Assembly (NCBI GenBank): GCA_015999875.1
Contig: JAECRG010000001.1
Span: 297,330 to 361,329, forward strand
DNA from: Candidatus Saccharimonadota bacterium
Lineage (GTDB): Bacteria; Patescibacteriota; Saccharimonadia; Saccharimonadales; Saccharimonadaceae
Reading direction: 5' to 3'
Length of the DNA: 64,000 nucleotides
A model generated the notes under the pieces. That model searched no databases. It was not told where the DNA came from and saw only the letters and a program-made list of their open reading frames with translations. Every line of letters begins with the position of its first letter. Position 1 is the first letter of the stretch. The position numbers and the translations under genes were made by a program. Shown here piece by piece: positions 2,877 through 59,768 of the stretch.

Positions 2877-4451
2877 TCAGTAAATCGAACCATTCGTCAT
2901 CTTCAGGGTGTAAAAAGTTTTGAGCGTCCTGCACCAAATTTGAGTTTTTGACCCGTCAGGGTCTTTTTCTTTTTGTTTAAGTACTTTATCAAAGGGGTAA
3001 TTGACGGTATACGACAGCTTTTTATCGTTCAATTGCAGGTTAGAAACCATGAAACCAATGAGTTTTGAGCGTTGATGCTCGTCGGCAAGTTCAAACAGTT
3101 CTTTTGCCCGACCCAACAGATCAAGAAGGTATGACGCCGTTACTAAAAAGTCCTTGTTGCCCTTAGTTAGAACATTAAGCCTATCGTCCAGCTCCTCCTG
3201 GCGCCCTGTAAGCTTCTTGACTATACGCTCGTGCTGTTCTGGTGTTATCTTTTCATCAACAAGCTTTTCGAACCAATTCTCAAGCTTCACGGTAATCTCG
3301 TCATACTCTTTCCGTATTGAATTAATAGATTGCACATGGAACATTTGCTGGTCATCATGATTTCTCTTCAGTTCATTAAGAACTTTTTCTACAAGATTTT
3401 TAGGAACAGTCATCCGATGGAATAGCTCACCGATTGAGCCAAGCACTAGAGACTCAGCTGTATTCGGGTTGTCGCATAGCGGGTTGGCGCACTTTAGATA
3501 GACCCAGCGCTTTGATTTAAACGAGCTTATCGTGCGTCCACAGCGACCGCATCTTACTATATCGTTAAAGTTGAAATCTAAGCTATTCCACTTAGTGCTT
3601 GTGACGCCCCTAGTTTCTTTAACTCGCTGACAGCGATTATATAGTGCACGGTCAATAAGCGCTGGATAATTATGTTTATACTCCACGCCATCATGCTCCA
3701 TGATTCCGTAATAGAATTTATTCTGTAACATTTTCTCAACGGTTGCCTTGGTAAGCTTTGCCTTGCCTGTTTTTCTACTTACATACCCAGCTTTTGTGAT
3801 TTCTTTTGCAATCACTGCGTACGGCATACCTTGTGCTCGAAGTTCAAAAACCTTAACGACATAGTGAGCGCGTTCTTCATCAACTATAACACCCTTGAGA
3901 GGCCGAGAGAGCGCCTCTGTGGGCATAACGATGTTTCTATAGCCGATTGGTGCTTGGTGCGTCCAGACACCCTCCGAGCGAAGCTGGTCAAAACGACGTT
4001 TTACATTGTCTCTTATCGAGCTTGAATAATAGGCAGCTAATGAGATACCAATATCCAATCTAAACCTATCGGCGGCTGGTGAGTTTTTATTTATATATAA
4101 ATTGTCACTAGGAAAGTGCATCTCTAGCTTGCCACTTTCGTACAGGCGTGTCAGGGTTGCCTTTTCAGTCGATGACGAGTCTCTGCTGAAGCGGTCAATT
4201 TTATCAAACACAACAATACTAGGTTCGGTGGCGTTTTCTAGCGGTGTAATGACAAGCTCATTGAAAGTCTTACGGTTCTGCTTAAATGCTGTTTCATCGA
4301 ACTCGATATACTTGAAGTCAATATCTTGTTTCCAGTTATTCTTGGCCGCATATTCATATAGTCGTTTCTGCTGAGCAGGAAGTGCTTTGCGTTGTTCTAC
4401 ATCGGATACGCGTGCTACTAGTAGGGTGGTTGGTTTATTTAGGGTTTTCAT
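2877..4451 (-). CDS. Large serine recombinase / resolvase-family site-specific recombinase
   Basis: N-terminal LLVARVSDVEQRKALPAQQKRL and VVFDKIDRFSRDSS (serine recombinase catalytic domain), recombinase domain, zinc-ribbon CGRCGRTISS...YLKCANPLCDN, coiled-coil region. Confidence 0.92.
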   Translation of the reverse strand: MKTLNKPTTLLVARVSDVEQRKALPAQQKRLYEYAAKNNWKQDIDFKYIEFDETAFKQNRKTFNELVITPLENATEPSIVVFDKIDRFSRDSSSTEKATLTRLYESGKLEMHFPSDNLYINKNSPAADRFRLDIGISLAAYYSSSIRDNVKRRFDQLRSEGVWTHQAPIGYRNIVMPTEALSRPLKGVIVDEERAHYVVKVFELRAQGMPYAVIAKEITKAGYVSRKTGKAKLTKATVEKMLQNKFYYGIMEHDGVEYKHNYPALIDRALYNRCQRVKETRGVTSTKWNSLDFNFNDIVRCGRCGRTISSFKSKRWVYLKCANPLCDNPNTAESLVLGSIGELFHRMTVPKNLVEKVLNELKRNHDDQQMFHVQSINSIRKEYDEITVKLENWFEKLVDEKITPEQHERIVKKLTGRQEELDDRLNVLTKGNKDFLVTASYLLDLLGRAKELFELADEHQRSKLIGFMVSNLQLNDKKLSYTVNYPFDKVLKQKEKDPDGSKTQIWCRTLKTFYTLKMTNGSIY

Positions 4452-5999: not shown

Positions 6000-6119
6000 T
6001 CTATATCCAGTATAGACGGTTGCATATTTTTTAGTTTCAAAAATTACAATTATCTCTGATGTCGCACTGTTATTGAAAGAAATCGGATATACTAGTTCCA
6101 AGCACATTCGTGCCTAAGC

Positions 6120-6260
6120 CTAGAGCCGCTCTCACGAGAAGGTATGGCTGTTAAATCTATCAGGAAGTAAAAGCTCGTCGTCAGAGCACTATTTCCTGAT
6201 AGTCATGCCCGAAAGGGTGTGGGTGGCCTCAAAACCACCACTGGCGGCGAGCTTTTTAGT
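6120..6260 (+). ncRNA. Candidate structured, pseudoknotted non-coding RNA upstream of the DUF4352 gene
   Basis: 10-bp stem 6157-6166/6193-6202, 16-bp helix 6169-6184/6241-6256 (two U-G pairs) crossing it, 7-bp GAAA-tetraloop hairpin 6204-6221, 5-bp hairpin 6222-6239; no ORF in the interval. Confidence 0.5.
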
Positions 6261-6308
6261 TTGCGCCAAAAACTATATTAAATGTAAGGGTCTACAGGAG
6301 GATTCTTC

Positions 6309-6869
6309 ATGAACGGAAACAACAATAAAAAACCATGGTATAAACGCTTTTGGGTTTGGGTACTTATCATTATTGTAATTGGTGGCATTGGTAGTGCGGC
6401 GGGTGGAAATAAGGGCGATACACCAACAAGCACCACGAACGGAACTACAGTATCAGAGACTAAGACACCAGAAGATAAGACGGAATTTGCCGTGGGTGAA
6501 ACTGCGAGCTTTGACGACAAGTCTATTACGATTACCGACGTACAACGTAACTACGACACAGGTAACCAATTCGCTCAGCCTGAATCAGGTAAGGAGTTTG
6601 TGCTCGTTACTGTTGAAATGGCTAATAATAGCAAGAACTCAATGGACTACAATACCTTTGAGTTTAAGTTACAGGACTCAAACGGTGTTCAGCTGAATGA
6701 ATCGTTTACCGCTTTGTCAGAAGGTAAGCTCAATAGCGGCTCACTGGCTCCTAGTGGTAAAGTAACGGGCAAGCTAGCCTATGAAGTGCCTAAAGATGAT
6801 GCAGGGCTTAAGTTGCTCTATCAGAGCTTTAGCTTCTTTAGTAACAAGGCTGTTACATTTAGTCTTTAA
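6309..6869 (+). CDS. DUF4352 domain-containing membrane-anchored protein
   Basis: N-terminal TM (WYKRFWVWVLIIIVIGGIGSAAG) followed by FAVGETASFDDKSITITDV...GKEFVLVTVEMANNSK DUF4352 pattern. Confidence 0.85.
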   Translation: MNGNNNKKPWYKRFWVWVLIIIVIGGIGSAAGGNKGDTPTSTTNGTTVSETKTPEDKTEFAVGETASFDDKSITITDVQRNYDTGNQFAQPESGKEFVLVTVEMANNSKNSMDYNTFEFKLQDSNGVQLNESFTALSEGKLNSGSLAPSGKVTGKLAYEVPKDDAGLKLLYQSFSFFSNKAVTFSL

Positions 6870-57895: not shown

Positions 57896-57959
57896 ATGTA
57901 CTGTGTCATAATAGAAAAACTATGATCCGCGCTCGGATCCTCTACTCGTCAACGTCCGG

Positions 57960-59768
57960 ATGAGCCGAACCGCTAGCGATACAAATTTATATTATTCACC
58001 AAACACAGATAGGAGTGCTGTGAATTTAAACGTTCAGACAATCAAACAATATTGGCGACAATCCAGAAAATACAAAGCATCTTTTATCGTTATGCTCATT
58101 TGTATTCCACTTGGTGTTGTTTCAATCGATATGGCATTACCGTATTTTCTTAGCCATGCAGTCGGAGGTCTTGCGGACAAAAATCAAGATATTGTCACGC
58201 AATCGATTATTGCTGCGGGTGCTGTTGGAGTCGCTGGAGTAATCTTCAACTTCATAGGCTTTCAGGCACTTACACATCATACCGCCCACCTCATAGCTAG
58301 GCTACGTGAGACTGTTTTCCAGCAGCTTCTTCACAAAGATAATTCTTTCTTCACAAATCAGAAGGTTGGCGCAATGACTGGTCGCTACATAGATTACGTA
58401 CGCAGCGCCATGACAATTAATGACCTGTTTGTCATACGTACCGTCGGCTTCCTTCTTTCGCTTTCGGCAGGCATCACAGTACTATGGCTACAATCGTGGC
58501 TTCTTGCATGTATTGTGCTCATATTTATTGTCTTATTAATGTTTCAGATACGCTGGAGTGCAAAATACCGAGCACCGTGGCGCCATGAACGCAAAGAGCT
58601 TGTTAGCGAAATACACGGCGAGGTCGCAGACTCGCTGACAAATAATCTCATCGTACGTACATTTGGCGGTGAAGACAGAGAAATGAAGTCCCTACTCAAA
58701 ATGACTCATCGATTCGAAAAGATCTTCAAAAAGGATATAGGGTTTGCATTAGGAGAAGGATCCGTACGAGTAGCATTTATGGTCGTCATTCAAGTCAGTA
58801 CGATCTTGGTTGCCACAAAAATGGTGCAGGACGGCAGTCTGTCTATCGCTACCGCAGTCTTTACGATCGCCTACTTGCAACGTCTTGGCTCTCAAATATT
58901 TACACTCGGCGAGATGATTAATGGATACGACCAAGCATTCCTCGACGCACAGCCCATGACTGAAATGTTGCTATACGAAAATGCAGTAAAGGACAAATCT
59001 AACGCCACAGCGCTCAGGGACGTATCCCCAACAATTGAGCTAGAGCATATGAGTTATCGCTACGATGACGGCAAGGAAAATGTACTGACGGATATCAACC
59101 TGCACATACCTTCAGGCCAGAAAGTTGGGCTAGTGGGTCACAGCGGTGCGGGCAAAAGTACTATCTCACAACTTCTACTTAGGTTCGCCGACGTAACAAG
59201 TGGAAGCATTAAGCTTTCTGGACACGACCTACGCGACATCACCCAAGATAGCTTACGTGAAAATATAGCGTATGTACCACAAGAGCCGATGCTCTTCCAC
59301 CGCAGCCTACGTGACAACATCGCCTATGGCAAACCAAATGCAAGCGATGCAGAGATCCTCAAAGCAGCTAAACAGGCAAACGCCCTAGACTTCATCAATA
59401 CTCTCCCTGAAGGACTTGATACGACAGTCGGCGAACGCGGCGTCAAGCTCAGCGGAGGCCAACGCCAACGCATCGCTATTGCGCGCGCGATTCTCAAAGA
59501 TGCGCCAATTCTCGTACTCGACGAAGCCACAAGTGCGCTCGACAGTGAAAGCGAAAAACTCATTCAAGATTCACTAGAGATGCTCATGAAAAACCGCACC
59601 AGTATCGTAATCGCACACCGTTTGAGTACCATAGCTAAACTTGATCGCATCATAGTGCTCGAAAAAGGTGCAATCATCGAAGACGGTACACACGCAGAGC
59701 TGCTCAGGCAAAAAGGGACTTATGCTAAGCTCTGGAATCACCAAAGCGGCGGTTTCATAGAAGAGTAG
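57960..59768 (+). CDS. ABC transporter ATP-binding protein/permease (exporter)
   Basis: Six TM plus GHSGAGKSTIS, LSGGQRQRIAIARAIL, ILVLDEATSALD. Confidence 0.96.
   Translation: MSRTASDTNLYYSPNTDRSAVNLNVQTIKQYWRQSRKYKASFIVMLICIPLGVVSIDMALPYFLSHAVGGLADKNQDIVTQSIIAAGAVGVAGVIFNFIGFQALTHHTAHLIARLRETVFQQLLHKDNSFFTNQKVGAMTGRYIDYVRSAMTINDLFVIRTVGFLLSLSAGITVLWLQSWLLACIVLIFIVLLMFQIRWSAKYRAPWRHERKELVSEIHGEVADSLTNNLIVRTFGGEDREMKSLLKMTHRFEKIFKKDIGFALGEGSVRVAFMVVIQVSTILVATKMVQDGSLSIATAVFTIAYLQRLGSQIFTLGEMINGYDQAFLDAQPMTEMLLYENAVKDKSNATALRDVSPTIELEHMSYRYDDGKENVLTDINLHIPSGQKVGLVGHSGAGKSTISQLLLRFADVTSGSIKLSGHDLRDITQDSLRENIAYVPQEPMLFHRSLRDNIAYGKPNASDAEILKAAKQANALDFINTLPEGLDTTVGERGVKLSGGQRQRIAIARAILKDAPILVLDEATSALDSESEKLIQDSLEMLMKNRTSIVIAHRLSTIAKLDRIIVLEKGAIIEDGTHAELLRQKGTYAKLWNHQSGGFIEE

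Follow-up and report, generated by a model that had tools for sequence, protein, structure and literature searches.

The orphan RNA LOOT of Patescibacteria: a covarying pseudoknot with competing pairings in the position of a gene leader

The pseudoknotted RNA encoded upstream of a DUF4352 gene in a Saccharibacteria genome is a copy of LOOT (Rfam RF03000). On balance, we read it as forming the 5′ leader of the mRNA of this gene and as a bistable, switch-like regulator of the cargo of an integrative element, with attenuation as the likeliest output in the window, that is, the whole stretch of 64,000 nucleotides analysed here. The RNA itself is already catalogued; what is new concerns the structure and context of an orphan family. 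Its structure is extended past the Rfam boundary, and its likely role moves from that of an sRNA to that of a gene leader.

Identity and structure of the RNA

Membership in the LOOT family requires a covariance-model score above the gathering threshold across the whole model. The segment 6117-6239 (+) matches the full-length model (1-121/121) with 56.2 bits in cmscan, the gathering score being 46.4, and every Rfam helix is present in the window copy. The original prediction had regarded the RNA as unassigned and had itself named a confident Rfam match as the outcome that takes away its novelty. Since the scan of 6050-6320 returned LOOT and the gathering score of RF03000 is reached, the RNA is no longer novel. 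The same scan gave no other family at E<=1, including tmRNA, RNase P and 6S, and no tmRNA was detected by ARAGORN. Among the functions offered at that time, nothing was found in favour of a ribozyme, and a cis-regulator is the one best supported, by the gene-leader position. The further description as a structured, pseudoknotted and non-coding RNA in a mobile-element region, 5′ of a DUF4352 gene in Saccharibacteria, is borne out.

LOOT is said to have been described originally in the computational survey of Weinberg et al. 2017. Rfam obtained the family from the Zasha Weinberg Database (PMC7779021), two covarying pairs were added to it in Rfam 15 (PMC11701678), and it is listed with six helices and 28 cross-covariations in a structure-prediction paper (PMC7657543). 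The literature accessible to us, which does not cover the original survey description, reports no function for it.

By direct reading, all predicted helices were recovered correctly to the base (Table 1). The stem 6157-6166 x 6193-6202 can be extended to 13 positions (6157-6169 x 6190-6202), and the helix crossing it (6169-6184 x 6241-6256) comprises 16 contiguous pairs, two of them U-G. The GAAA hairpin (6204-6221), the hairpin 6222-6226/6235-6239 and the upstream hairpin with its arms AGCC (6117-6120) and GGCT (6146-6149) are present as well. The crossing helix is the longest duplex within 6117-6260, and not one of 1000 dinucleotide shuffles reached a length of 16 (mean 8.3, maximum 15). The Rfam model of 121 nt has P4 as its last helix; the pseudoknot 3′ strand, the U-run and the segments C and D treated below lie beyond it. 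By inspection, hairpins similar to P0 were seen ahead of many LOOT copies.

Table 1. Features of the LOOT locus in the window
Feature	Position	Strand	Basis or remark
Candidate -10 box TATACT	6088..6093	+	sequence; transcription would start near 6100
P0 hairpin GCAC-AUUC-GUGC, presumed 5′ end of the transcript	6102..6113	+	direct reading
LOOT RNA, Rfam RF03000	6117..6239	+	cmscan 56.2 bits
P1, AGCC 6117-6120 / GGCU 6146-6149, with inner hairpin	6117..6149	+	tetraloop-receptor-like strands CCUAGAG 6119-6125 and UAUGG 6143-6147
P2, 6157-6169 x 6190-6202; loop carries pseudoknot 5′ strand and apical hairpin	6157..6202	+	
Apical hairpin GCUC/GAGC	6173-6176/6184-6187	+	mutually exclusive with crossing helix; missed by the original prediction
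Pseudoknot 5′ strand AAAAGCUCGUCGUCAG	6169..6184	+	partner 6241-6256
P3 hairpin, GAAA tetraloop 6211-6214	6204..6221	+	
P4 hairpin, final helix of the Rfam model	6222..6239	+	Rfam scan
Pseudoknot 3′ strand CUGGCGGCGAGCUUUU, beyond the Rfam model	6241..6256	+	duplex -26.7 kcal/mol
U5 run, candidate intrinsic terminator; abuts the G+C-rich portion of the pseudoknot helix	6253..6257	+	direct reading; missed by the original prediction
Arm C′ UUUGCGCCA, alternative partner of 6242-6251	6260..6268	+	-10.5 kcal/mol
CUACAGGAGG, Shine-Dalgarno region; may form D with P2 3′ strand	6292..6301	+	-8.8 kcal/mol
DUF4352 membrane-anchored protein, 186 aa, gene 3′ of LOOT	6309..6869	+	Pfam PF11611 E=3.6e-26; ORF
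Large serine recombinase	2877..4451	-	PF00239, PF07508; E=2e-161 with recombinase HMM built here

For the comparison of homologues, the P2 loop and the segment behind P4 were extracted from 127 oriented LOOT loci of 94 Patescibacteria genomes. The pseudoknot duplex reached a mean of -25.3 kcal/mol with the strand of its own locus and -15.6 kcal/mol with partners from other genomes, the lowest of 2000 permutations being -16.9 (126 loci). Columns 3-9 of the crossing helix are canonical in 95-100% of 94 distinct rows, with several pair types each, as against 43-81% after shuffling; in this column test the registers were chosen per locus, so canonical pairing is overstated, a bias of which the permutation test is free. 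The original prediction had made itself dependent on covariation of the crossing helices in homologues, and this covariation is found. The pseudoknot is therefore real, strongly conserved and covarying, and it is left out of the public LOOT model.

A further contact is suggested by two motifs. The loop of P3 is GAAA in 123/127 loci, and strands similar to CCUAA and YAUGG are present in P1 in nearly all of the 127. The 11-nt receptor of the GAAA tetraloop consists of CCUAAG/UAUGG. Owing to this resemblance, docking of the P3 loop to P1 in a tertiary contact is likely.

Competing pairings and control of the downstream gene

Both strands of the pseudoknot and the 3′ strand of P2 have alternative partners. 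The apical hairpin offers another closure for the pseudoknot 5′ strand, and its pairing is stronger within a locus than after permutation (-6.5 vs -4.0 kcal/mol, sd 0.17). Across the family, two more pairings have this advantage: one joins the pseudoknot 3′ strand to an arm located downstream (C; -13.8 vs -10.9 kcal/mol, sd 0.21), the other joins the P2 3′ strand to sequence ahead of the start codon (D; -8.8 vs -6.5, sd 0.17). C and D each beat all 2000 permutations, and two control pairings had no such advantage. At the level of complementarity, these tests support mutually exclusive pairings like those between aptamer and expression platform of a riboswitch. A nearly exact repeat of the P2 5′ arm before the start codon (identity score of at least 9) occurs in 23/126 loci compared with 1.0% of mismatched pairs. 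Where strong D was tested, it mostly ends 0-5 nt 5′ of the AUG, and the two nested folds are often within about 5 kcal/mol of each other. D is strong in other loci and weak in the window, where it overlaps the Shine-Dalgarno sequence but the fold containing it is less stable than the P2 fold by 12.8 kcal/mol; the relevant choice there is therefore the one between pseudoknot and C. Arm C in the window showed no locus specificity (rank 0.56).

A G+C-rich helix followed by at least five U, as is typical of a terminator, is seen in the window in the form of the pseudoknot helix. T-runs of at least five are found in 61% of the loci in the order of the window and in 44% of those in the rest of the phylum; many loci have U3-U4 only (UUUGUGU), which is poor for termination. 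As a separate observation, an ACAAYT box is located up to 35 nt 5′ of P1 in 68/127 loci (3.6 expected), by eye mostly in those with a 3′ end of the UUUGUGU type, and its ACAA could pair with UUGU.

We infer co-transcription with the gene, switching in response to a signal, and a direction of control in which the pseudoknot brings about termination at the U-run. The leader would fold into P1, P2, P3 and P4, with the segment behind P4 captured by the apical loop of P2 as a pseudoknot of 12-16 bp ending at the U-run. In the alternative fold the apical hairpin would close and arm C would take up the pseudoknot 3′ strand; some loci would additionally allow strong pairing between the P2 3′ strand and the segment D just 5′ of the start codon. 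Because the pseudoknot fold competes with these alternatives, the output of the gene would depend on the fold formed. In the window, the U5 run and the free ribosome-binding site favour transcription attenuation, where the pseudoknot at the U-run would stop the polymerase and the alternative would allow read-through. Predictions of this model are a co-transcript, a pseudoknot-dependent switch and effects of compensatory changes introduced into strands C and D.

Several points speak against this model. In the window D is weak, and C lacks locus specificity; the short U-runs of many loci are a further objection. Arm C′ leaves the polymerase after the U-run and cannot easily prevent a termination in progress, so control after transcription fits better. 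Furthermore, a pseudoknot terminator combined with a translation block by D would make both folds OFF in loci having both. As arm C comes too late and other loci have a D able to mask the start codon, the main rival is a translational switch, in which the pseudoknot fold would be ON with the start codon free. In its OFF state the ribosome-binding region would be taken up by the P2 3′ strand, and C by the pseudoknot 3′ strand; the U-run would be just a part of the helix. The covariation of D with P2, the position of strong D next to the AUG, an alternative fold that nests both C and D, and the U-runs that prolong the pseudoknot helix in many loci are all consistent with this. However, strong D is confined to about one fifth of the loci, and the window has a weak D. 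T-runs of at least five are common, their frequency dropping only slightly in loci that have D (9/22 vs 57/103). We consider a purely translational switch unlikely; attenuation and translational control could coexist as different outputs of one LOOT core.

Genomic position and mobile-element context

An ORF on the same strand follows LOOT in 126/127 loci, as is expected for a conserved structured leader of the riboswitch type. Its start lies at a median of 60 nt past the Rfam end (quartiles 53-74), so that a second promoter would hardly fit in between. ORFs of at least 45 aa are present on the same-strand side in 121/126 cases and on the divergent side in 65/126. A TATAAT box matching in 6/6 positions occurs within 75 nt upstream in 41% of the 127 loci vs 8.5% of shuffles. 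This arrangement points to a gene leader and not to a free-standing small RNA. The Rfam type of LOOT, sRNA, would imply a trans-acting molecule with its own pseudoknotted terminator, for which the promoter box and the U-run could be claimed; given a gene so close on the same strand, scant space for another promoter and a segment D that fits the start of the adjacent gene better than the starts at other loci, we regard this as improbable.

The genes downstream of LOOT are unrelated. They belong to 58 Pfam families, each found in at most 4/121 proteins. One common downstream function was therefore rejected, and the link to a single metabolite that would be expected for a riboswitch is not seen. 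Defence cargo was also considered and rejected as a shared theme, with only few methyltransferases and SNase-type proteins among these genes. A hydrophobic segment within the first 60 residues is encoded by 63% of them compared with 23% of other ORFs.

Over 6100-6264, the window LOOT is 85% identical to a copy in another genome (G037) that sits ahead of an unrelated gene. In a genome of the same genus (G002), DNA similarity to the window's first 9 kb is confined to LOOT and stops at the U-run. Directly upstream of the DUF4352 paralogue in the window genome (G000:C2:114503-115054, L255; 76% identical) and of the orthologues in five other genomes, LOOT is absent. Judged by these sequences, LOOT behaves as a module exchanged between unrelated genes. 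Such exchange, together with the stable folds, would also suit a constitutive module, made up of a promoter and a stable 5′ leader, that shields cargo mRNAs and does not switch. As this fails to account for C and D covarying with the core, we give it little credence and keep to a switching leader.

LOOT was detected in 65/393 genomes of the order of the window (17%) and in 83/380 genomes sampled across the phylum (22%); with this spread and with such diverse genes, no shared pathway points to a ligand. Named records with LOOT belong to Saccharibacteria, Parcubacteria, Doudnabacteria and Woesebacteria, and the label Chloroflexi of one further record (L156) is probably wrong. Some genomes carry up to seven copies. 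Repeated copies within a genome (L049 and L050 in G002, L063-L065 in G049, L102 in G341) are found before paralogous or unrelated genes, those in G049 and G341 ahead of long MARLPQPGGD-type proteins. At L183 (G518:C3), two LOOT copies in the same direction within 500 nt precede two related short ORFs (MPKYKIDIWFDQ.. and MPKFKIDFWFDQ..), a possible tandem duplication.

A large serine recombinase was found in the examined flanks of 71/127 LOOT loci and in none of the other 56, and the nearest one is divergent and upstream of LOOT in 56/70 cases counted. Control DNA from LOOT-bearing genomes (20 stretches, 400 kb) contained none; across the order of the window, PF07508 occurs at about one or two sites in a genome. 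These counts tie LOOT to recombinase-bearing integrative elements of Patescibacteria, very small bacteria of the candidate phyla radiation whose gene regulation is barely known. A role at the DNA level beside the recombinase, for example as an attachment or folded single-strand site, would agree with the close, mostly divergent recombinase and the end of homology at the U-run, but is hardly credible in view of the wobble pairs retained in the pseudoknot, a promoter and start codon positioned for an RNA, the relation of C and D to the gene start, and the 56/127 loci without a recombinase in the examined flanks.

In the window, the recombinase has as neighbours a DRT UG21-like reverse transcriptase, a C5 methyltransferase and an AbiU-like protein. 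The reverse transcriptase (1195-2769, -) is closest to the PADLOC model DRT UG21 (E=6e-129) and adjoins a DUF4238 protein. The segment 7951-11451, which encodes the C5 methyltransferase, a small protein without assignment and an AbiU/AIPR-like protein, is a probable defence island. A second Rfam RNA, MDR-NUDIX (RF02918), is located at 57919-57979 (+; 69.6 bits). A viral origin of LOOT was considered and rejected: a pattern of the pseudoknot strands matched 18 viral contigs, and the 16 of these scanned with Rfam were all without LOOT. A second such pattern had no match in viral contigs, and LOOT had none in phage and plasmid records. In the same-genus genomes searched for an empty element site, nothing was syntenic at the DNA level, and att sites were therefore not found.

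A second pseudoknot leader and known systems

The leaders of the DUF4352 orthologues (L256, L257, L258, L259, L260) differ from LOOT and follow the same logic: the loop of a long stem pairs over 9-13 nt with a segment abutting the stem, followed by a U-run, the ribosome-binding site and ATG. They had no Rfam match even at E<=0.5. When 3.0 Mb were scanned for this topology, 107 matches were obtained, compared with 7 in shuffled sequence. Of the 107, 40 were outside LOOT coordinates, although a few of these still represent LOOT, either read from the other strand or recorded under a different locus. Serine recombinase genes follow nine of the 40; in these nine, P1 comes immediately after TATAAT, GGGGCGGUCUG-like strands pair with CAGACCGUCCC-like ones, and the start codon is 17-36 nt further on. 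At these nine loci Rfam returned no match at gathering score. The second leader was found in 12/83 recombinase upstream regions, where none was expected, and rigid DNA patterns retrieved only the known copies. Loci of this kind 5′ of serine recombinases are L051, L054, L061, L072, L080, L106, L107, L188, L208, L267, L277, L289 and L292; there P1 abuts the -10 box, GGGCGGUCUG-like strands face CAGACCGUCC-like ones, and U4-5 and the start codon come shortly after.

This second leader on recombinase genes and DUF4352 orthologues is a lead from sequence patterns and not a finished family. The occurrence of pseudoknot leaders beyond Rfam suggests that these mobile elements use them generally. Tentatively, LOOT and the second leader might even be members of a broader class of pseudoknot attenuators that would regulate both recombinase and cargo of Patescibacteria integrative elements, in which a long-range pseudoknot replaces the terminator hairpin and the strands are re-tuned for each downstream gene.

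With respect to the Rfam family, the window copy is full-length and above gathering, whereas its context fits a 5′ leader and the Rfam type is sRNA. LOOT shares with the GAAA tetraloop and 11-nt receptor of group I/II introns and RNase P the P3 loop and the CCUAA and YAUGG strands in P1; the sixth receptor position, however, is mostly A or C instead of G. As in translational riboswitches with a sequestered ribosome-binding site, the P2 3′ strand is able to pair up to the start codon, but only a subset of loci has D. With attenuators and riboswitches that use terminator and antiterminator, LOOT has in common the 5′ leader, exclusive pairings, a G+C-rich helix with U-run and a gene start 30-60 nt on. 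It differs from them in having no known ligand or shared pathway, and in the helix preceding the U-run, which is a long-range pseudoknot instead of a hairpin.
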